A DNA stretch of 29,339 bases from positions 1 through 29,339 of IMG/VR virus record IMGVR_UViG_3300007345_000177; one strand, written 5' to 3'. The notes under the pieces were generated by a model. It was given only the letters and a program-made list of their open reading frames with translations. It did no database searches and was not told where the DNA came from. Origin of the DNA: a virus. Positions 6,038-28,144 of this stretch are shown one piece after another (positions within the stretch are counted from its first letter, which is position 1; each line of letters begins with the position of its first letter). A program made the position numbers and the translations under genes.

Positions 6038-9000
6038 ATGGCTACTCGTCCTGACATAAGAGATTTTGATGTTGAAAGTTTACTTAAAAGTTTTGCTGCT
6101 GCTAAACGAGGAAGTAGAAAAGATCCTAGTTATTTAAAACAATTAGCTCCTAATCTTATTAAAGGTGTAATAGGTGTTTATGACCAATATCAAACTGAAA
6201 AGCTTCAAGATGAAATAGATCAAGTTAATTTTGATAATACATTAGAGCTTGCAAAACTTAATATGAATGCTGCTAAAAATGCAAAACTATACAAAGCAAC
6301 ATCTCAACAATATAATCAATTAGCTAATCAAGGTTTTAATTTTGATGAAGTAGATAATGAAAAAATATCAGATGCTGCTTTTGCTGCTGCACAACCTATT
6401 CTTGGTGAACAAGCATGGAGAGAAACTACAGAAAAGTTTAAAACTATTCCACAAAGTTTGACAGGTTCTTATGATGATTTTGAACAGTATGTTCAAGACT
6501 ATGCAGTAAGTCCTGAAGCTAAACAAAATATTACTAATTTTTATAGAGCAGCAATTAAAGACCAAGCTAATTATATTAAAACAGGCCAATCTTTTAACTA
6601 TGATAAGTTTCAAGCTGCCGCAGAATCTTTGCAAGCAATGGATATTGATTTTGATGCTGCTGATTATGGCTTACTTGCTAAACTAGATGGAAGACTTAGA
6701 CGTAAAATTAGAATGCGCGATGGCTCTATTGATACTTTTAGATCTACTTATATGTCTAAACCTGCTGCTGATATGGATAATGCTCTTAGTGTTTGGAGAG
6801 ATTCACGTACTAAAGATGATTTTAATACAAATATTCAAGGTTTAGATTTAGGGTATGCAGCTTTATTAACTAATGAACAAAGAGATTACAGTGTAGCTTT
6901 GCCTACTGCAACTAAAGAACGTATACGCATGGCTATGGAAAAAAGATTTGGTGATGTTCCTAATGCGGCTACTTCTGATGTACAAACTTTTTTTAATTCA
7001 TTAGTATATGGTTCAGCAATGCCTACTCAAGCTCAAGTAATAATACAAGAAGATATGTATCGTGAAATAGCTAAAATTGAAAATGATGGCAATCTTACAT
7101 TGCAACAAAAAGAAGAACGAATAACTAATCAAAGAAATAGAGCTAAAAGTTTATTTAACGATATACAAGAAAGGTCTAATATCAGAACTCCTGAAGACGT
7201 TACTAATTTTACATATTTAAATACTGTTCGTCAAGATAGTTTAGCAGCTATTAAAGTTTTAAAAGATAAAGGTAATCTTACTCCTGAAGAACAAACTCGT
7301 TTAATAGATACTCAACAAATTAATCAATTAGCTACTATGGGAATTAATGCTATAGGTTCTCAAGAATATAGTGCTATTAATTCTAAGTTAACTGAACAAA
7401 TTTTAGAAAATATGGCTACTAATTCTTATTCTGGTAGAGGATATGTTATGCGCTTAAATGCTTATGGCAATAAAATAGCAGAAGGAAAAAATGGTGCTTT
7501 ACGTTTAAATACTCCTGAACTTCAAGAAGCAATAAATATGGCTAATGCTAGAGGAGATGAAGTATTGCTACAACGGTTACTTACAGGAGTAGCTCCTGCT
7601 GCCAGATATGGAGAAAAAGATAATCATAGATCTACTACAGGACAAGCAATAGTTGAACAAGTACAACTTACTTTTCAAAATCAAATTGCAGGAGGAAATA
7701 CTTTTGGGTTTGATGATAATGTAGCTGAAAAGTTAAATGCTCAAGCAGGTTTTAGAGGTACAGGTCTTGATGCTTTAGGCCAGGTTATGCATAAAGCAGA
7801 TTTTTGGGTTACGGAACTTCAACAAACAAATGAATTAAATATATTAAGAGGCGGCACTGATGGAATTTTTGGTGATAAAAGTACTTTTGATATAGAAGCT
7901 GGCAAAGCTATGATTCCTGATATGCTTATAGAACTTGGTGGTATTGTCTATGATAAAGATACAGGAAGTTTTCGTGCTGATTTAAATGCTATTAATGAAG
8001 ATAAAGTGTTTGATTATTTAAAAGCAGAAGTAACAACAGCTAAAAATGCTCAGGCAAATATATTCCAAGGATTTAATGTAAGCACTGATGTTCTTGATAT
8101 AAATATTTCAGAAAATGCTTTAGCAGATTTACAAAATGAAGTAAATTCTAGAGGCTCTAAAGATCAAAGAGATGCTCTTAATAGAAAAGTTGAAGCATTG
8201 CGTATGCAACAAGCAGAAGCACAAGCAGAAAAAGAAGAAAAAGAACGTACTAAAATACCTACACAAAAAGATCCTGATCCTAGAGCAATGGGAGGTGATT
8301 TATTAAGTGAAGAAGAACTTCAAAGACGTAGAGATGCGCTTGCAGGAACAGCAAGAAGAAGTTTAGAAATTTTAGGCAGTGGTGCAGGTATAAGAAACGA
8401 TAAAAAAAAAGTAATCCCTGAGCCTACAAGCCCTAAAGAAACTTCAGAAACAACTGTATTAGATACAGTAATTAATACTTTAATACCTTCAGCAGAAGCT
8501 GTTGTTCCTGAAACTCAACAAACTTCCTTATTAGAAGGAGATAATATTTCTAGGGCTGTAGATCGTGCAGATGCAAGGCAACGTAATTTATTTAGCAATA
8601 AAAAAGAAATACCTGTAACTCTTTCAAATGGAACTTCATTAATGGTAGATACTACTAAACCTGTTGTTTATTTAAAAAATAAATTTGATGCAAATGAATT
8701 AACTTTTGATCAAGGTGTAGAAGCATACGCTAAAGCTATTGAAGCTCACAATGCAACTTTAGGTTTAACTAGTAAGGCTAATGCTTTAGATCCTATTGTA
8801 GATTCTCTTACATTTGCTGCACTTGCTAATCCTAAAGAATATAATCCAAAAAGGTTTATAAGAGTAGCCAGTAATAAAAAAGAAAGCCAAAATTTTAAAG
8901 ATAGTGTATTTGAAATAGTTAATGGCGAAAAAGCTCAAGAAGAAATAAATCAATATAGTCTTAAAGTTTCTGATATGACAGATCAACAAAAAGAAAAAGA

Positions 9001-12200: not shown

Positions 12201-15200
12201 TGTGCTTTTACAATTTATGGGATACCCGACTGCTTTTAGTAATACTGTTCTTAAAAACTTTTACGGCCAAGCAGCCAGAGATCCTATTCGTGGGGGAGGT
12301 AAAGTTTTAGGTACAGGCTTGTTGATGACTATGGCAGCAGCAGGTACTAATTGGGTGCGTAATGGTGGTAACTTTAAAGACTCATCAGGTGAAGAACAAG
12401 ATGCAGGAGAAATAGCATTTGAAGCTGTATCTCGTTGGGGTGGGTTTGGCTATGGTGAGTATGTTAAGAATGCTAGAGAAAATGCAGAGATAGGTGGAGG
12501 TACGTTAGGTTCAGTAACTAAAGCAGTTACAGGGCCAATAGTAGGCGATGCTATTGATGCTATTTTGTATCGTAAAGGGCCAGGAGAGCTTTTAGCAACT
12601 AATACGCCAGGATATAGTTTATATAGAGCATTACCAAGTTTAGTAGAAAATAATTCTTTTAAGCAAGATGTTAAAGAAGTAGGTAAGTCTATTGATAGAG
12701 CTATTGGATTAAAGCCCCCATTAAAAGAACAATCTTATGATGCTTATTTACAACAAGGTAGACGAGAGTATTTAGAAGAAGTTAAGTTATATGCAGAAGG
12801 AGGGGAAGTATTTAGTAATGTTCCTAGAGCTTCTGTAAATCCTAGTAGTCGTATAGATCGTATGACAGGTATGCCTTATGAAGATCAGGCAGGAGATATA
12901 ATTGATAATAGAGCTAAGTTTTCTAAAGGAAAGTTAGTTAAGGCAATACAAAGAACATTAAATCTTACAGATGATGAAATTGATAGAGTTACTTTTGATC
13001 CTACACAAGAAAATAAAGCTGAGTTAGATAATTTCATTAGTTATGAAGATACACCTATTCAAGACAGAAAGCAAGCAGAATTGTTAAAAAGTTTGAACAT
13101 TGAAGAGTCTGCTGTTAAAGATGATATATATATAGTTCAAAATAAAACAGGCTGGATGGTAGCGCAAACTCAACCACCTGTTAATATCCCTAAGTCACGA
13201 AAGGGAACTATTAGAACTTTAAATCCTTTTGTTTATGATGGTGAATTAGATCAAGAGTTTAATCCTAGCGATTTGTTAGAAGATGAAAACTTTATGAGTA
13301 AGCTAAAAGATCCTCAGTTATTAAAACAACTTGATAGATTAAGAAAAGAAAGAAAACGTATTCTTGCTACAAATATTGAAGATCTTTCTTATGCAGATCC
13401 TTTAGATAGTATTTCTTGGAATGCGTTTAGAACTTTAGATAAATCAGTAACAGAACTTTTAAAGAAAGCAGGTTATGATTCTATTCAATTTAATCCTAAA
13501 CAACAACAACCAAAAGATTTAGCAAAAGAAGCTATTAATGTTACAGAGCAAACGGTACAACAAGAAGTACCTCCAGTGCGTACTGCTTTTGAATCTACAG
13601 GAGCTACAGCAACTGCTTTGCTAGAAGAAGCAGATAAAGCTATGCCAGGATCTAGAGAATTACTAGCAGGTGGAGTTAGAGAAATAGAAGCAACAGATAT
13701 ATTGCCTCCTGAAAGACCAGAGTTAATAGACTCTACAGTAACAACATATAGTTTTGAAGGGCGCAATGAGCCTTTACTTGCATCAGAAATGCAACCAAAT
13801 AAAAGCTGGTTTCTTTTAGATGATACAATGTTTATGGAAGATTCAGTATCACCTGTAGTATCAACGCAAACATATTTTGATTTTAATACTCAGTTACACG
13901 AAAATTATCGTACAAAGTTTATTGAGGAAAATAAAATAGGGCCAAACACTTCTACAGAAAGTTTAAAGCAAAAAATTAATGCTGGGCCTTTTAACATTGT
14001 AACTTCTTTAATTCCTAGAGATAAAGAGTTAGGAACATTAAAAGAAGAATTACCTAATGTTCCTGTAGTGTTTGGGCCTTTACCTAAACAAAAAGATGCT
14101 TTTGCTTATCATAGTAAATCTGATAATACAATTTATATTGATCCTGTAAGAATGGAAGAAAAATATCAACAAAAAGCGTGGACAACTTTACGCCCAGATG
14201 TTTTAGAAAAAAAGCCAGGAGCAGAACCATTACCAGAAAATGCAATTCAAACAAGAGAGGAATGGGAAGAGTTTGTAAAACGACACGAATATGCTCATAG
14301 TAAGTATGATCAATTTGAAGGAGAACTTGATGGAGAATATGAAAACAGAATGAATAGAATTGCTTTAGGCATTCCACAAGTTTTTCCTAGCAAGACTTTA
14401 ACAGTTAAACAAGCTACTGAAAGAAACTTAGCTCTTTTAAAATCTGAATTAAATTTAAAAGATGCTGATCAAAATAAAACTTATAATGCTTTTAAAAAGC
14501 AATTTGATGCTAGTTTAATTGTCCCAGAGCGCCAAATACCTGTTCCTTTATATTTTATAACAGAAGTTATTCCAGGACAAAGTTCTAAATATTTAAATAA
14601 TGAGTCTGGTAGGCTTTTAAATGCATCAGAGATGGCTGCATTTCTTAAAGGTAGGCAAGAAACAAAACCTGCTGAAGCTTTACATCATCCTGTAAATAAT
14701 AATATTCGGCATCCTAATGCTAAAGCATTTGCAAGTATTGCTCCTACAATAACAAATCAAAAAGAAAGTCAACAAGCAGCAAATGAGTATCTTAAAAAAG
14801 TTATTATTACAGAAGAACAACCTTATACGCTTTCTGCATTTGAAAAATTTGAAACAAGAAGACAAATGGATTTAGCAAGGGCAAGAGAAACAGATGAAAC
14901 TGAAGGAATTATAGGTCGGCAAGGAAGAGATAAACGTCCAGATTTAGAAGACTATGATCCTAAACAAGATCAAGTTAAACGTGGTAAAGGAGGAGTTAGG
15001 TATATGCGTACTCCTGATGGAGATATTTTAGTAGAATATGATAAAGATACTAAACGTTTTGAGCCTATATTAGCCAATCCGTTAAATAAAAATAGCTTTA
15101 TTTATTATTCTCCTGATAAAGATATGTCAGCATTTAAACCTAAAAAACGTCGTAAAGCTAGAGTAGCTGCTAAAGCTCCTTCATTAAAACAACCTAAACA

Positions 15201-18153: not shown

Positions 18154-18464
18154 GAGAAGAATATAAAAAAGGAAGTAAAGCTAAAAAGAAAGATCCTAGA
18201 TTAGCCAGGGCTGGAGTGTCTGGATATAACAAACCCAAACGAACTCCTAAGCACCCTACTAAATCCCATGTTGTTGTAGCTAAAGATGGTGATAAAATTA
18301 AAACCATACGCTTTGGACAACAAGGTGTCCGTGGTGCTGGTAAAAATCCTACATCTAAAAAAGACAAAGCTCGTAAAAAATCATATTATGCTAGACATAA
18401 TGCACAAGACTCTAATCCCTCAAAACTTTCAGCCCGATACTGGTCACACAAAGTTAAATGGTAA
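18150..18464 (+). CDS. Basic protein (104 aa) with R-F-G-Q-Q-G and A-R-Y-W-S-x-K-V-K-W motifs
   Basis: Residues 1-40 are Lys/Arg-rich. A beta-like segment follows (S-H-V-V-V-A-K-D-G-D-K-I-K-T-I-R-F-G-Q-Q-G-V), then K-D-K-A-R-K-K-S-Y-Y-A-R-H-N and the C-terminal S-K-L-S-A-R-Y-W-S-H-K-V-K-W. The order K-T-I-R-F-G-Q-Q-G, R-K-S, R-H, S-A-x-Y-W-x-x-K-V-K-W is a recurring signature of small uncharacterised viral proteins as I remember them. It is the last member of the basic-protein cluster and starts in an ATGA overlap with its neighbour, so the group is probably co-translated. Function unknown. Confidence 0.75.
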   Translation: MREEYKKGSKAKKKDPRLARAGVSGYNKPKRTPKHPTKSHVVVAKDGDKIKTIRFGQQGVRGAGKNPTSKKDKARKKSYYARHNAQDSNPSKLSARYWSHKVKW

Positions 18465-18474
18465 GGACTAAATT

Positions 18475-18693
18475 ATGGAAGACTCTGTAGTACTTTTTGA
18501 ATCTCCAGAAGCAGGAACTCTAAGATTAAATACTGAAGCAATCTCACATCTAAGCACAGCATTTGTTGAAGTTGAAGATGCTGATCTTAAACTGGCTATT
18601 TTTTCTTTAATACAAAAGCACTCTGATTATGTATTAGCTACAAGTGATAAAATATTATGCAAGCAAAAACTTCATTTAACCAAAGTTAAATAA
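18475..18693 (+). CDS. Small hypothetical protein (72 aa), last gene of the plus-strand arm
   Basis: The ATG follows TAAGGA by a few bases. The product (MEDSVVLFESPEAGTLRLNT...) is acidic and globular-looking with alternating hydrophobics, unlike its very basic neighbours; no known motif. Its final codons (H-L-T-K-V-K-stop) lie inside the first copy of a 22-bp direct repeat, which recurs 152 bp downstream at the end of the convergent minus-strand gene. If the repeat came from an insertion, this gene's end is unaltered, because the duplicated copy retains the stop codon. Confidence 0.65.
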   Translation: MEDSVVLFESPEAGTLRLNTEAISHLSTAFVEVEDADLKLAIFSLIQKHSDYVLATSDKILCKQKLHLTKVK

Positions 18694-18694
18694 A
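18673..18694 (+). repeat. Direct repeat copy 1 (22 bp), overlapping the last plus-strand gene
   Basis: This 22-bp sequence is identical to 18825-18846. Its core is itself a perfect small palindrome, ATTTAAC-CAAA-GTTAAAT. It encodes the last six codons and stop of the 72-aa protein. The last base coincides with the first base of the inverted-repeat element that follows. Confidence 0.95.
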
Positions 18695-18823
18695 GCTTCA
18701 TTGCTAAAATCTTGTGTAGTCTCTACTTACCTCAATCTGTTTTGTGTAGCGTGCAAGTTAATTTAGACTACACAAAATACTTTATTGCTATCCCAGACTA
18801 CACAAGATTTTAACAATGAAGCT
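18694..18823. repeat. 130-bp element with 28-bp inverted-repeat ends and a concentric inner palindrome
   Basis: Arms 18694-18721 and 18796-18823 are inverted repeats of each other with one mismatch in 28. Inside, 18740-18749 and 18768-18777 form a perfect 10-bp inverted repeat. Both pairs share the same centre (18758.5), and the unpaired parts are 18 nt left, 18 nt right and an 18-nt loop. The octamer TTGTGTAG occurs four times, two on each strand (18712, 18742, 18768, 18798). The element has no ORF and lies between convergent operons. It may act as a bidirectional terminator or protect RNA 3' ends, be a MITE-like insertion, or bind a protein. The arms are AT-rich and not followed by long T runs, so it is not a textbook terminator. 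Confidence 0.9.
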
Positions 18824-18824
18824 G

Positions 18825-18846
18825 CATTTAACCAAAGTTAAATAAA
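18825..18846 (+). repeat. Direct repeat copy 2 (22 bp), overlapping the last minus-strand gene
   Basis: Exact copy of 18673-18694, 152 bp downstream, beginning two bases after the inverted-repeat element. It contains the stop codon of the convergent minus-strand 70-aa gene (TTA at 18838-18840 on the plus strand). In copy 1 the same TTA is at 18686-18688, within the end of the plus-strand gene, so an ancestral single copy would have made the two genes overlap tail to tail by a few bases. Confidence 0.95.
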
Positions 18847-19050
18847 ACTTTCTAATTCTTTTTCTAATCTTTTATGCAACTTAGTAAACATAGGATCTAG
18901 TTCTTTAAAAACTTTATGCAGAAGAATACTATCCTCACCATCAAAAAACTTTGTAATCTCTTTTTTGGGAAGATAGCTGTACTCTGTCATTAACTTTCCC
19001 TTCTTATCTATAAATACTTTAAAGGATATAATGTTCCCCTCTTCATTCAT
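18838..19050 (-). CDS. Small hypothetical protein (70 aa), last gene of the minus-strand arm
   Basis: The ATG overlaps the nrdB stop as ATGA, so it is read as the last cistron of the minus-strand operon. The product has a beta-like N-terminus (GNIISFKVFIDKKGKLMTEY), a charged middle with F-D-G-E-D, and a C-terminal amphipathic helix (KLHKRLEKELESFI). I recognise no family. Its stop codon is inside the second copy of the 22-bp direct repeat. Placement after nrdB could be incidental. Confidence 0.65.
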   Translation of the reverse strand: MNEEGNIISFKVFIDKKGKLMTEYSYLPKKEITKFFDGEDSILLHKVFKELDPMFTKLHKRLEKELESFI

Positions 19051-20009
19051 GCAAACCTCACTTTTTCTACATTACCGCGTAGTCCTGCTTTCATATATGT
19101 AGTAGCTCGGCCTTCAAAGAAGTTCTGATGCTCTACACCCAACACATCATCAAGCCAATCTAGTGGATTATCTTTTACATTGTAGTTAGGTTTCAAGCCT
19201 AGCTGTAGCAACCTACGATCTGCAATGTACCTAATATACTGTTGCATCTCTTTCTTTGTTAGTCCACGTATGTCACCTTGTTCAAACACAAGATCCAAGA
19301 ACCTATCTTCTAAGTTAACCATCTCACGACATGCCTGATAGATCTCAGCTTTGAAGTCATCAGTCCATAGCTCAATGTTTTCCTGGATAAATTCTCTAAA
19401 TAACTTTGTCATTGCTTCTACGTGCATAGACTCGTCACGTATACTGTATGTAATAATCTGTCCCATGCCCTTCATCTTACCGAAGCGTGGGAAGTTTAGA
19501 AGGATTATGAAGCTAGAAAACAACTGTAGCCCTTCAGTAAAAGCAGAGTAGATAGCTAGTGCTTTAGCAATGGACTGTCTATCGCCTTTAGTGACCCGTA
19601 CAGCGTCGATATACTCATGCTTATCTGCCATAGCTTCATACTCTGCAAACGCCTTATACTCAAGCTCAGGCATTCCTACGGTGTCTAGTAGCAGACTGTA
19701 AGCATGTTGGTGTATTGACTCCATATTATGAAAAGCACCCATCATCATACGTGCTTCAGGTTTCTTAAAGATCTTCATATAACGGTCAACATAACCAGAA
19801 CCAACATCTACATCAGACTGAGTAAACAGTCTAAAGATCTGTGTAAGTAAATTCTTTTCAGACTCATCAAGAACCTGCCAATCTTTCACATCATTGTGCA
19901 GCGGTACATCTTCTGGGAACCAGTGCATCTGATTCTGTTGTGAGTAGTAGTCGAACATCCAAGGATGCTCAAACGGCTTATAATAATCTCTTGTTCCTAG
20001 TAGGCTCAT
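19047..20009 (-). CDS. nrdB: Class Ia ribonucleotide reductase, small (radical) subunit
   Basis: 320 aa, within the usual range for this subunit. It houses the di-iron centre and tyrosyl radical used by NrdA to make dNTPs from NDPs. Predicted iron ligands are all present: D66, E97, H100 (M-E-S-I-H), E160 (F-T-E-G), E193 and H196 (R-D-E-S-M-H). The radical tyrosine is Y104, seven residues after E97, as Y122 follows E115 in E. coli NrdB, so this is the tyrosyl-radical type. It is separated from nrdA by seven small or accessory genes on the same strand. The ATG sits next to the stop of the 69-aa protein (TAATG). Confidence 0.95.
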   Translation of the reverse strand: MSLLGTRDYYKPFEHPWMFDYYSQQNQMHWFPEDVPLHNDVKDWQVLDESEKNLLTQIFRLFTQSDVDVGSGYVDRYMKIFKKPEARMMMGAFHNMESIHQHAYSLLLDTVGMPELEYKAFAEYEAMADKHEYIDAVRVTKGDRQSIAKALAIYSAFTEGLQLFSSFIILLNFPRFGKMKGMGQIITYSIRDESMHVEAMTKLFREFIQENIELWTDDFKAEIYQACREMVNLEDRFLDLVFEQGDIRGLTKKEMQQYIRYIADRRLLQLGLKPNYNVKDNPLDWLDDVLGVEHQNFFEGRATTYMKAGLRGNVEKVRFA

Positions 20010-20218: not shown

Positions 20219-20520
20219 GCTACATCTCCTTCTTTTATAAAAACGCCATTACTGTTCATATGGCCTTTACGATCTTTAATATCTAAGTAAGCTACACGTA
20301 AACACTGGTCTAGGTCTGTGTCGTGCATAACTGCTAGTGTGTTTAACACCACAAGGCAGTCGCCTATATCGTCTGCAATATCTCGTTGCTTAGCAATGTT
20401 ATCGCCGAGTTCTCCTATCTCTGATACAAGCTTTGCAAACTGTGCAAGTGGTGTGCTGTTGTTAATAATACCTTTGTCGTAGCTCCAAAGAGTTACTAAA
20501 TCTACTAGTGTTGTATTCAT
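20215..20520 (-). CDS. MazG-like nucleotide pyrophosphohydrolase
   Basis: 101 aa starting MNTTLVDLVTLWSYDKG. It carries the all-alpha NTP-PPase metal pattern: E34-x-x-E37 (S-E-I-G-E-L) and D50-D51-x-x-D54 (A-D-D-I-G-D-C), matching the E-x-x-E...[ED]-x-x-D signature of MazG/dUTPase-like enzymes. Such enzymes hydrolyse (d)NTPs to monophosphates and may adjust nucleotide or alarmone pools during infection. The ATG at 20520 is chosen because it overlaps the oxygenase stop as ATGA; a longer in-frame reading to 20610 would run through the oxygenase gene with an Arg-rich, unlikely N-terminus. About half the length of full MazG; a single-domain form. Confidence 0.8.
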   Translation of the reverse strand: MNTTLVDLVTLWSYDKGIINNSTPLAQFAKLVSEIGELGDNIAKQRDIADDIGDCLVVLNTLAVMHDTDLDQCLRVAYLDIKDRKGHMNSNGVFIKEGDVA

Positions 20521-21209
20521 TGTTTCTCCACTGGGAATGCGTTTAAGTTTGCAGCTACAGTACGGCGCTCTCCTTCGCCTTTGAATGGATATACCATATG
20601 TTGCAGCCACGAAGGAAAAAAATATATCTTACCTACTTGTGGTTTAAATACTACAGCCTGAGTAGGCTTTAGTCTTTCTTTATCATTGACTGCGCTCTGG
20701 CCATATACAAACTCTATAAAGCCATCGCTGCATCCTGAAGCATTATAATAACTAAACTTTCCTTCATGTGGCGCTTCTAGTTTTTGTATCTGCTCTGGTA
20801 TTTTAGTCCACGTTGTACAGCTAATACCCATTATAGTCTTAGTGCCGTGGTCATGTATCGGATTGTAGTCGCCTTCGTAACTGTGAACAGACCACAACTC
20901 ATCTATGTCTATTTGCCTATCACCATCCAATACTTGACCAGTATTTTCAAAGAACTGTCCAACGTAGTGTACGGCTAGGTTCTGCAAACAAGCTCTAACG
21001 TCTTGTAAGTCTTTATGAGTATGATCCATACGTAACTGTTCACCAGCCTGTATTTGTCCTACAAGGGTGTCAGCAGCAGTAACTCTATCTTCCTGTAACA
21101 AGAGATCGTCTAAAAAACTATTTAAAGTATCTACATGCTCCATAGGAAAGTCTGCTTCCATCATAAAGACAGAAGGAAGAGGCAGCATTCTATATTGTAT
21201 CTCACTCAT
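20517..21209 (-). CDS. 2-oxoglutarate/Fe(II)-dependent oxygenase-like protein
   Basis: 230 aa. The C-terminal half shows a cupin-fold 2OG oxygenase signature: Y-N-P-I-H-D-H-G (H119, H121 region), then I-Y-F-F-P-S-W-L-Q-H-M-V-Y-P-F (H204), and G-E-G-E-R-R-T-V-A-A-N, where R215 or R216 would bind 2OG. The F-P-S-W-L-x-H-x-V-x-P ... E-R-x-x-x-x-x-N string is typical of a phage/cyanobacterial 2OG oxygenase family of unknown substrate. It could hydroxylate a nucleobase, protein or metabolite; nothing here identifies which. Starts in an 8-base overlap with the preceding small gene and overlaps the MazG-like start as ATGA. Confidence 0.82.
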   Translation of the reverse strand: MSEIQYRMLPLPSVFMMEADFPMEHVDTLNSFLDDLLLQEDRVTAADTLVGQIQAGEQLRMDHTHKDLQDVRACLQNLAVHYVGQFFENTGQVLDGDRQIDIDELWSVHSYEGDYNPIHDHGTKTIMGISCTTWTKIPEQIQKLEAPHEGKFSYYNASGCSDGFIEFVYGQSAVNDKERLKPTQAVVFKPQVGKIYFFPSWLQHMVYPFKGEGERRTVAANLNAFPVEKQ

Positions 21210-21815: not shown

Positions 21816-22032
21816 AGTCTTTCTCCGTCAGTATAGGTTTGTTAATAGCTAACAACATCTTTTCTAAATCTTCTTTAATTTCGTCAACACTCTCACCAAA
21901 AGGGGCTACTGGGTTTTCAGTATAAAGACTAGGCTCGCCTTTATGATAGTAAACTTCATGTATAGCTAAATTATTTTCATCTTCCTTAAAGAGCCTGTAA
22001 TTCCATGTTCCGTCAACTTCTTCATCCTTCAC
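21808..22032 (-). CDS. Small acidic hypothetical protein (74 aa), GTG start
   Basis: GTG at 22032 lies in the last codons of nrdA; GGGGAG is about 10 nt upstream. The product starts MKDEEVDGTWNYRLFKEDEN and contains A-I-H-E-V-Y-Y-H-K-G-E-P, E-N-P-V-A-P-F-G-E-S-V-D-E-I-K-E-D-L and a C-terminal helix with K-P-I-L. The W-N-Y-R pattern followed by I-H-E-V-Y-Y and a P-x-G-E-S-x-E-E-L-type helix is a layout I vaguely associate with small uncharacterised phage proteins, without a function. Directly downstream of nrdA and overlapping it. Confidence 0.68.
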   Translation of the reverse strand: MKDEEVDGTWNYRLFKEDENNLAIHEVYYHKGEPSLYTENPVAPFGESVDEIKEDLEKMLLAINKPILTEKDFD

Positions 22033-23911
22033 AACTTAAACACTCCCCTTCTTCAAGATTTATTCTTGGTATTTTGATGTTAACATTCTCTGTATTTCTA
22101 GCTGCATTAGAGCGGAGGTAATACATAGATTTGAGTTTGTTAGCTCCCGCCCAATGTACGCTATTAATATATTCCAAGTACTCATCATGTACCTCCTGTT
22201 CTGCTGTAGCTGGTGGTGGTATAAAGAATAAGTTTACTGACTGAGCTTGGCATACATATTTCTGTCTTTGGTATGCATGTTCAACGATCCAGATTTGATT
22301 GATCTCAGGTGCGGTTTTAAATACTTCTCTTTCTTCTTGAGATAACGCCTCCAAGCCTTCAACAGAACCTTCAGCAGCCGCAATATCCTTCCACGTTTTA
22401 TCTGTGTTGATACCTTTTTCATCTAGTAACTTCTCCAAGTACTTGTTTTTTACTTTAAAAGATCCAGTTAAAGTCTTGTGCGTAAATACGTTAGCCCTCG
22501 TAGGCTCAATACTAGGACTCGTTCCACCACATATAATACTGCTGCTGGCGTTAGGAGCAATAGCAAGAAGATGTGAGTTACGAAGACCACTGCCAACCAT
22601 ATCAGGAGCTTCACCCCTAGATCCAGCCAACTGTGCACTAGCTTCAGTAGCTCTTTCCTTGATGTGTTTAAAGGCTCTATTATTAAAACTGGCAGCGTAC
22701 ATTCTTTCAAAAGGGATTCCATTACGTTGAAGATAAGAATGAAAGCCCATCGCACCAAGGCCAATCGCCCGTTCTCTATATGCACTATAAGCGGCTTTTG
22801 CAAAGCCTGTTTTATCTTGTCCCACATACTCCATAAACTCCTCTAATGTGTCTATTTGCTCTCTGCGGTAAAGCCACAGACCATTTAGTGCATGAACAAT
22901 AAAATGCTCCAGTGTGTTGTCTAGCATGGTAACTAGGTCTGATATAAAGTTTTCATTATCTTTCCACTCATCAAAGTATTCTAAATTAACACTAGACAAG
23001 CAGCAAACTGCTGTGCGTTCCTCACTTGTAGGCAATGTAATCTCAGAGCATAAATTACTCTGTCGCACAGTAAGTCCTAAGTCCTTCTGTTGTTGTGGTA
23101 GGTACTCATTACAGCGGTCTGTATTGACAATGTACGGCTCACCTGTCTCTGCTCTGGTGTGTACTAGCTGCCACCACAAGTCCCTGGCTGAGACAGTTTT
23201 AACTGCTTGCTTAGACTTAGGATCAATCAAACGCCAGGGTAGATCATGCTCTACCGCATATAGGTATTCATCAGATACATTGACACCGTTATGCAAGTTA
23301 AGGCACTTGCGATTGAGATCGCCACCAGTAGTCTTTCGCATTGCAATAAACTCTTCAATTTCTGGATGGCTAATATCCATATACGCTGCATAAGACCCTC
23401 TCCTAGTAACGCCTTGATTAAAGGCAAGCATTTGACTGTCTACTACATGCATGAATGGAATGCTACCAGTAGACTCACTGCCGTTAGCAGTAGATATACC
23501 ATTACTCCTAACATCACCCCAATATCCACCCAGGCCTCCACCTGAACTAGCCAACCATATGTTCTCGTCATAATGATCAGATAGACCACGCCTTGAGTCA
23601 GGAACATAATTAAGAAAGCAAGAGATAGGTAAACCACGAGTAGTTCCCCCGTTGCTAAGGATAGGAGTGCTAAACATAAACCAATTAGAACTTGCGTAGT
23701 TATAAAGTCGCTGTGCAAGATCAAAGTCAGTATGTTCTTGATAAGTAGCACTATAAACAGAGGCCCTTGCAAAAGCTTCTTGAGCATATTCTTCATCTTC
23801 CCAAAAGTATCTATCTTTTAATGTTTGAATAGAAAATTCTGTAAGCAAACTTTCTTTATCGTAATCAATCTCTATCCCCAAATAATTCATCTTGCCAGTT
23901 TTTAATGTCAT
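22022..23911 (-). CDS. nrdA: Class Ia ribonucleotide reductase, large (catalytic) subunit without ATP cone
   Basis: About 629 aa. NrdA reduces ribonucleoside diphosphates using the radical delivered by NrdB. Visible landmarks are the thiol P-I-S-C-F (C98), N-L-C-S-E-I (N286, C288, E290), the radical-relay K-S-M-Y-Y-L-R tyrosine pair near the end, and the C-terminal C-L-S-C redox pair that exchanges with thioredoxin or glutaredoxin. E. coli NrdA is 761 aa with an N-terminal ATP cone; here the catalytic domain starts almost at once, so allosteric activity control is probably lost. ATG 23911 has AAGG 9 nt upstream; ATGs at 23920, 23917 and 23890 are alternatives. Confidence 0.95.
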   Translation of the reverse strand: MTLKTGKMNYLGIEIDYDKESLLTEFSIQTLKDRYFWEDEEYAQEAFARASVYSATYQEHTDFDLAQRLYNYASSNWFMFSTPILSNGGTTRGLPISCFLNYVPDSRRGLSDHYDENIWLASSGGGLGGYWGDVRSNGISTANGSESTGSIPFMHVVDSQMLAFNQGVTRRGSYAAYMDISHPEIEEFIAMRKTTGGDLNRKCLNLHNGVNVSDEYLYAVEHDLPWRLIDPKSKQAVKTVSARDLWWQLVHTRAETGEPYIVNTDRCNEYLPQQQKDLGLTVRQSNLCSEITLPTSEERTAVCCLSSVNLEYFDEWKDNENFISDLVTMLDNTLEHFIVHALNGLWLYRREQIDTLEEFMEYVGQDKTGFAKAAYSAYRERAIGLGAMGFHSYLQRNGIPFERMYAASFNNRAFKHIKERATEASAQLAGSRGEAPDMVGSGLRNSHLLAIAPNASSSIICGGTSPSIEPTRANVFTHKTLTGSFKVKNKYLEKLLDEKGINTDKTWKDIAAAEGSVEGLEALSQEEREVFKTAPEINQIWIVEHAYQRQKYVCQAQSVNLFFIPPPATAEQEVHDEYLEYINSVHWAGANKLKSMYYLRSNAARNTENVNIKIPRINLEEGECLSCEG

Positions 23912-24029
23912 CAACATCATCCTTTTCTCTTAACTGTGATTGCCTGTACCCTCTAGTACGTGCTTTATTTTTAGACTTTTTTCTTTTATTAAACTTTTCA
24001 GTGCGCTCTGCTTTTCTATCCCAAGACAT
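23865..24029 (-). CDS. Very small basic ORF (54 aa) overlapping both neighbours
   Basis: The ATG at 24029 overlaps the end of the DUF3310 gene by 14 bases (ATGTCTTGGGATAG). The product is MSWDRKAERTEKFNKRKKSK followed by a short Arg/Gln segment, an acidic patch (EKDDVDDIKN) and W-Q-D-E-L-F-G-D-R-D. Without it the stretch between DUF3310 and nrdA would be an unusual gap in an otherwise overlapping operon. The 3' end runs about 47 bases into nrdA, more overlap than other pairs here. No recognised function; moderately supported by position and by the basic-then-acidic layout. Confidence 0.5.
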   Translation of the reverse strand: MSWDRKAERTEKFNKRKKSKNKARTRGYRQSQLREKDDVDDIKNWQDELFGDRD

Positions 24030-27934: not shown

Positions 27935-28144
27935 TTATTTATTCCTTCGTTGTTCTTGCCTACGATAATTATATACTGTGGAATATCCTAAGTTTAACTT
28001 TTCAGCCATAGCTCCTACCTGCCAACCTTTTCTTGTTAGTTCAAATATCATTTCTTTTTCTTCATCTGTTAAAGCTGTTTTGTATATTTTTGCTTTCTTT
28101 AAATTGATATATTTTTGCTGTGCTTTGATTGCTTGATAAAACAT
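27935..28144 (-). CDS. Small helix-turn-helix DNA-binding protein (69 aa)
   Basis: Residues 26-60 (T-D-E-E-K-E-M-I-F-E-L-T-R-K-G-W-Q-V-G-A, then M-A-E-K-L-N-L-G-Y-S-T-V-Y-N-Y-R-R) form a three-helix HTH of the resolvase/Hin or sigma-like type: a helix, a G-x-x-V-G-A-M-A turn, and a recognition helix ending in Y-N-Y-R-R. The N-terminus is helical and basic. It lies between primase-helicase and polymerase, abutting the latter, with AAGGA before its ATG. It could regulate early genes or bind a replication site; a remnant of a larger mobile-element protein is less likely given the clean start and stop. Confidence 0.78.
   Translation of the reverse strand: MFYQAIKAQQKYINLKKAKIYKTALTDEEKEMIFELTRKGWQVGAMAEKLNLGYSTVYNYRRQEQRRNK

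Follow-up and report, generated by a model that had tools for sequence, protein, structure and literature searches.

The window, by which we mean the whole stretch of DNA that was analysed, comprises the 29,339 bases of one virus record. The nearest named phage record to its nrdB gene (19047-20009) was that of Pelagibacter phage HTVC115P, with 68% identity, and the nearest named records to its DNA polymerase were HTVC103P, HTVC104P and HTVC115P (49-51%). Two convergent operons meet at the locus described here. On the late side, the flanking gene (18475-18693, plus strand) encodes 72 residues and gave no Pfam or PHROG match. On the early side, the flanking gene (18838-19050, minus strand) encodes 70 residues, belongs to phrog_27180, a family of unknown function, and lies downstream of nrdB, its upstream neighbour. 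A putative 2OG-Fe(II) oxygenase (20517-21209, minus strand; PF13759, E 1.2e-15) was found in the interval from nrdB to a frame of 632 aa (22022-23920) that resembles nrdA by eye.

Where these operons converge lies an element of 128-130 bp, enclosed by two identical copies of the 22-mer CATTTAACCAAAGTTAAATAAA (18673-18694 and 18825-18846; 22 of 22 positions). The starts of the two copies are 152 bp apart. The direct repeat is exact over 22 bp, and becomes 24 bp long, with a single mismatch, when 128 bp are counted as element. The left copy includes the 3' end and the stop codon of the 72-aa gene, and the right copy includes the 3' end of the 70-aa gene on the minus strand. The outer arms of the element, each of 28 bp (18695-18722 and 18795-18822), are complementary at 27 of 28 positions, the mismatch being between 18704 and 18813. 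Its inner arms, TTTTGTGTAG (18740-18749) and CTACACAAAA (18768-18777), form a perfect inverted repeat of 10 bp. A loop of 18 nt (18750-18767) separates the inner arms, a spacer of 17 nt lies between outer and inner arm on each side (18723-18739 and 18778-18794), and the two spacers are dissimilar in sequence. All inverted parts share the centre 18758.5. As the direct repeat is itself an 18-bp palindrome (ATTTAAC-CAAA-GTTAAAT), the whole forms an imperfect foldback with arms of 57 nt that are 82% complementary.

The arms contain four copies of the short motifs TTGTGTAG and CTACACAA, starting at 18712, 18742, 18768 and 18798. Site 1 (core 18712-18719) falls in the inner part of the left outer arm, TTGTGTAGTCT; sites 2 (18742-18749) and 3 (18768-18775) fall in the left and right inner arms, and site 4 (18798-18805) in the right outer arm. 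The element can be described as two inverted ends around the 18-nt centre, each end carrying two TTGTGTAG sites that are 30 bp apart from start to start, and one end can be written as the pattern CTACACAAAA-N17-AGACTACACAAGATTTTARCAATGAAGC. The sites lie 17 and 47 nt from the 22-bp core on the left, and 19 and 49 nt from it on the right. The only reading frames inside the element are two short, TTG-started ones of 21 and 33 aa.

An earlier note on this DNA had described the 28-bp inverted ends with one mismatch, the perfect inner repeat with exactly the same centre and the identical 22-bp direct repeats 152 bp apart, and we recovered all of these. Its figure of 18 nt for both loop and spacers holds for the loop, the spacers being one nucleotide shorter. 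Its statement that each direct repeat overlaps the end of one convergent gene was also borne out.

Empty alleles in related phages

The 130-bp segment, which has no recognisable gene, is an insertion in a tail-to-tail overlap of stop codons and is accompanied by the 22-bp direct repeat. Through nrdB and the 22-mer, 81 related loci were retrieved, two of which (L004 and L083) contained close homologues of both flanking genes. In L004, the flanks are 96-97% identical to those of the window, exactly 152 bp are missing, and a single copy of the repeat site is present (18 of 22 positions identical). The flanks of L083 are 92% and 85% identical; 152 bp are missing there, in addition to an indel of 1 nt, and the identical 22-mer occurs once (22 of 22). 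The two genes also stand tail to tail with no insert in the more distant relatives L003 and L007, and a gap of some 20-30 bp separates them in L016. Because the insertion left a 22-bp direct repeat, neither protein was altered, and both C-termini in the window are complete despite the insert (72 aa and 70 aa).

A sequence search that did match L103 and L085, the two further copies described below, gave no match to the element in the records of L004, L083, L003 and L007. Nor was it matched in 50 nrdB-relative records, a set that held no positive control of its own, the query having matched L103 and L085 elsewhere. The earlier note had proposed the insertion of a MITE-like or recombinase-generated element, and had set against it the case in which all relatives carry the structure and no empty site exists. 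The relatives without the element, together with the two empty alleles and the piece inserted in the unrelated L103, support the insertion. At the same junction in another relative, L015, an extra open reading frame of 67 aa lies between the convergent genes (6176-6379, minus strand).

Copies in unrelated phages

A search for the arms in other phages revealed a piece of the element in L103, an unrelated phage, where its centre and right end were inserted. This copy comprises 86 bp (3331-3416 of L103) and is 98% identical to 18744-18829 of the window, plus strand, that is, the end of site 2, the centre, the right end and the first five bases of the right direct repeat. The sequence of the loop is shared and the right spacer is conserved, and the left arm is missing. 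The left outer arm of the window is 100% identical over 29 bp to the complement of the right arm of L103. The L103 base corresponding to 18813 agrees with the left arm of the window. This base would make the arms of the window complementary at 28 of 28 positions, and the L103 copy is therefore not derived from the present sequence of the window.

The L103 contig carries primase-like and small-terminase-like genes and has a GC content of 0.50, against 0.305 for the insert. Besides L103 itself, 70 of its relatives were retrieved, nine of which could be aligned on both flanks; the insert is missing in all nine, and the two flanking genes are adjacent there. The element was likewise not matched in 43 L103-relative records, again a set with no positive control of its own, searched with the query that did match L103 and L085 elsewhere. 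The place of site 2 in L103 is occupied by TAGTGAAG, at the right spacing and with two mismatches. This degenerate site may be native sequence, since a stretch much like it, GAGTAGAGAAGGGT, stands there in two relatives, L189 and L191. No significant direct repeat surrounds the L103 copy, the longest shared word being a 7-mer that 1924 of 5000 shuffles equalled or exceeded.

The third copy, in L085, holds the three-site middle only. Its three sites have a spacing identical to that in the window, TTGTGTAG-18-CTACACAA-22-CTACACAA, with a loop of equal length and 83% identity over 41 bp. A direct repeat around it, the 9-mer AATCCTGCT, is weak (68 of 5000 shuffles were as good). In the same record, the first part of the gene that lies upstream of the sites (MSTDYKA..LESTSNHQ; 36-350) recurs about 760 bp downstream (799-870), which suggests that some of this region of L085 was duplicated.

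The three pairwise comparisons of the window, L103 and L085, the last represented by 40,000 bases of its record, gave no protein match at E 1e-3, and the element was the only DNA match. When 2.09 Mb were scanned for the sites at fixed spacing, a biased sample in that it had partly been retrieved with these motifs, at most two mismatches were found only in the window, L103 and L085. The next loci were L088, itself retrieved by motif, with four mismatches and L010, L011 and L070 with five; the reversed control gave none below six. In all, three copies were found, never two in one record.

Departure from chance and folding

A gapless scan for inverted repeats (minimum score 16, maximum loop 140) over 699,558 bases, comprising the window and the 81 related loci, returned the element as its sole match. 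The 22-mer common to both flanks was equalled in none of 5000 shuffles. Both strands were folded as RNA over 18660-18860, giving -63 and -78 kcal/mol with z about -10.8 on each, and none of 200 shuffles on either strand reached these values. In raw energies, uncorrected for G+C content, the junction folds at -78.8, which is the lowest of 55 junctions, followed by -70.0 and -66.5, and the empty-allele junctions fold at -40.5 (L083) and -37.4 (L004). The L103 copy folds no better than its shuffles (z -1.6 and +0.5).

A proposed non-autonomous, MITE-like element

The explanation that we favour, with a chance of being right that is about even or slightly better, is that the segment is a MITE-like, non-autonomous mobile element whose insertion was recent. 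It is short and carries no transposase gene, its terminal inverted repeats of 28 bp are complementary at 27 positions, and in the window it is flanked by a 22-bp duplication that has its empty-site counterparts in L004 and L083. With regard to copies at different places, exact scans yielded one partial copy with 98% identity (L103) and one divergent copy with three sites (L085).

The arms are conserved, the spacers are free, and mirror-image sites recur 30 bp apart, a combination which, judged from the sequence, would have the look of paired recombinase-binding sites at the two ends. Arms alike at 27 of 28 positions beside dissimilar 17-nt spacers would be expected if constraint acted on the sites and not on the spacers. 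Each pair of TTGTGTAG sites would thus be a set of putative recognition sites for a recombinase that pairs both ends and moves the element. A 30-bp site repeat corresponds to about three helical turns, which would place the sites on one face of the DNA. The recombinase would be supplied in trans, from another mobile element or from the host, since the element is too small to encode an enzyme and none of the window proteins searched is clearly a recombinase. A target duplication arising from a widely staggered cut would be the simplest account of the 22-bp repeat. Binding by a protein, an enzyme acting in trans and a staggered cut are three steps that we infer. The position in a stop-codon overlap is probably that of a survivor of selection, because a long duplication costs nothing there.

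Among 20 window proteins compared with Pfam, no recombinase scored above the cut-off. The nearest candidate is a 69-aa helix-turn-helix protein (27935-28144, minus strand), which scored 17.0 bits for a resolvase helix-turn-helix domain (cut-off 23.8), had a sub-threshold match to the transposase family phrog_157 (E 9e-4) and weakly matched a D5-like regulator. This protein probably does no more than bind DNA. Several observations argue against the MITE-like reading: exact scans returned no autonomous partner, the copies number only three, the L103 copy is truncated and has no significant direct repeat, its site 2 may be native, L085 has only the sites, and a duplication of 22 bp lies between the size classes of 15-17 and 24-29 bp given for the IS1202 group.

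Alternative explanations

The element could also have arisen without a dedicated enzyme, by template switching or illegitimate recombination. While the phage replicated or mended a break, DNA of another phage would have been copied in where the palindromic target and the donor ends are alike over short stretches, with the hairpins of both provoking the copying, and a slip back would have duplicated the 22 bp. The weak resemblance of the empty target to both donor ends as they occur in L103 (61 and 322 of 5000 shuffles were as good) is consistent with such copying, as are the truncation of the L103 copy without a significant direct repeat and the restriction of L085 to the three-site middle. 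Nevertheless, copying of this kind leaves unexplained why two phages that are unrelated received one and the same insert, why the site spacing in L085 is exact and why the ends are paired while their spacers differ. We consider it unlikely.

It is quite unlikely that the segment is a tyrosine-integrase relic or satellite, reduced to its attachment region. Tyrosine-integrase attachment regions have attL and attR cores with inverted core sites, together with arm-type sites. The 22-bp repeats would then be the attL and attR cores, in which inverted core sites of 7 bp surround CAAA, and the arm-type sites would be the TTGTGTAG motifs. The exactness of the 22-bp core, which restores the ends of both genes, the inverted 7-bp repeats within it and the nearly symmetric placement of short sites on both sides all fit this arrangement. 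However, PF00589 was found neither among the 20 window proteins compared with Pfam, the window being a fragment, nor in any of three phage records, also fragments (L004, L083 and L085), its matches being in a bacterial genome instead. Moreover, the sequence beside the L103 copy resembles the window core no better than shuffles do (749 of 5000 were as good). Two other kinds of site were set aside. The attC core consensus of integrons is RYYYAAC/GTTRRRY; 7-mers in the repeat fit these cores but are spaced either 4 nt or some 150 nt apart, and an exact 22-bp repeat would be unexpected. For a dif-like site of XerC/D, the GTTAAAT match is short and the spacing is wrong.

It is most unlikely that the structure is primarily a selected RNA or DNA hairpin, which would serve the convergent operons by terminating transcription in both directions or by stabilising 3' ends, with its origin being secondary. 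Its place where the operons meet, its folds at -63 and -78 kcal/mol and its rank as the lowest-energy junction of 55, in energies uncorrected for G+C, would suit such a function. The close relatives L004 and L083, however, manage without the element, and the copy in L103 lies between co-directional genes and does not fold beyond its shuffles. The element is also A+T-rich, a terminator scan of 18300-19200 (a G+C-containing stem ahead of a T run, loops of 3-8 only) returned none, and the window had no Rfam match at the gathering score. A terminator role is possible as a secondary one.

An assembly or amplification artefact is hardly credible. Each of the three copies is from a contig of an uncultivated virus, and long palindromes are error-prone, but two unrelated contigs, the window and L103, have both junctions with native flanks, and the spacers differ, whereas an artefact of inverted duplication would make them alike.

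Relation to known systems

The Correia, ERIC and RPE palindromic repeats of bacteria are about 100-150 bp long and are inserted between genes. Compared by description, the element resembles them as a palindrome of such length inserted between genes, and differs in that it is not repeated in its record. Like tyrosine-integrase attachment sites, it has core repeats that are identical and include inverted core sites, short sites that recur on either side, and gene ends that are restored; in contrast to them, it has only 130 bp between the cores and no integrase was seen. Transposons of the IS1202 group have ends of the TG...CA type, which are not evident in the element, and no transposase of this kind was seen. 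The IS1202 group (IS481 family) resembles the element in having target duplications above 20 bp, in size classes of 5-6, 15-17 and 24-29 bp (PMC10045372); the exact 22 bp of the element fall between the last two.

Bacterial and viral MITEs resemble the element in being short, with no transposase, terminal inverted repeats, direct repeats and a strong hairpin. The hupL MITE of Thiomargarita has 19-bp inverted repeats and 10-bp direct repeats (PMC4853749). MITEs also occur in viruses of insects and amoebae, with duplications of 2-8 bp, in a paper whose main text lacks the word phage (PMC6004678). The present element differs from these MITEs in its phage carrier, its 22-bp duplication, its single copy per record and the site pair with dissimilar spacers at each end. 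The MITE region described in PMC7760358 lies in a plasmid and not in a phage, and was set aside. Among the papers listed, no title or abstract reported an element of this kind in phages or moving between them.

In cells, non-autonomous elements of small size are familiar. We tentatively put forward, as an unlikely proposal, a previously undescribed class of minimal DNA passing from phage to phage. Such ends-only elements, consisting of phased TTGTGTAG pairs, would be moved between unrelated phages by the recombinase of a co-infecting element, and would persist at convergent stop-codon overlaps, where a duplication of more than 20 bp leaves both genes intact. If the MITE-like reading is right, phages exchange such parasites, and stop-codon overlaps, at which long duplications are harmless, are places where compact phage genomes can bear them. 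The conserved architecture of the ends could serve as bait for the missing enzyme.

Wider searches

Viral contigs and 84,980 genomes were scanned for exact patterns, with no mismatch tolerated, and the scans returned no member besides L103 and L085 and no enzyme-bearing version. The two-site pattern had 49 matches in viral contigs, with the architecture in L085 and L103 only, and in the other exact scans of viral contigs, 5 of 6 and 6 of 8 matches had different spacings or sequences. A repeat of host genomes was considered and rejected, as the exact two-site pattern occurs at 11 places in the 84,980 genomes, none of which has the architecture.

In the 'distant' search mode, the best E values among the matches listed were 0.05 (phages) and 0.2 (plasmids) for the window query, and 6 and 0.4 for the L103 query in these two collections; the L085 query gave no matches there. 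The matches at E 0.05, to T4-like phages, are located in annotated genes, and those to Pseudoalteromonas (H91-H93; 27 bases, E 0.6) fall in a place annotated as hisB in H92; both were attributed to chance.

A 17-mer of the arm had 35 viral matches, of which only L103 was clearly longer. In 25 of these 35 loci (within L090-L123), a nearly identical stretch surrounds TAAAATCTTGTGTAGTCGCCATTTAACGCTAC, which is linked to the element by the 17-mer alone as far as seen. Finally, another viral contig, L087, contains an array of alternating TTGTGTAG/CTACACAA palindromic units at about 12700-12860, with a spacing different from that of the element.
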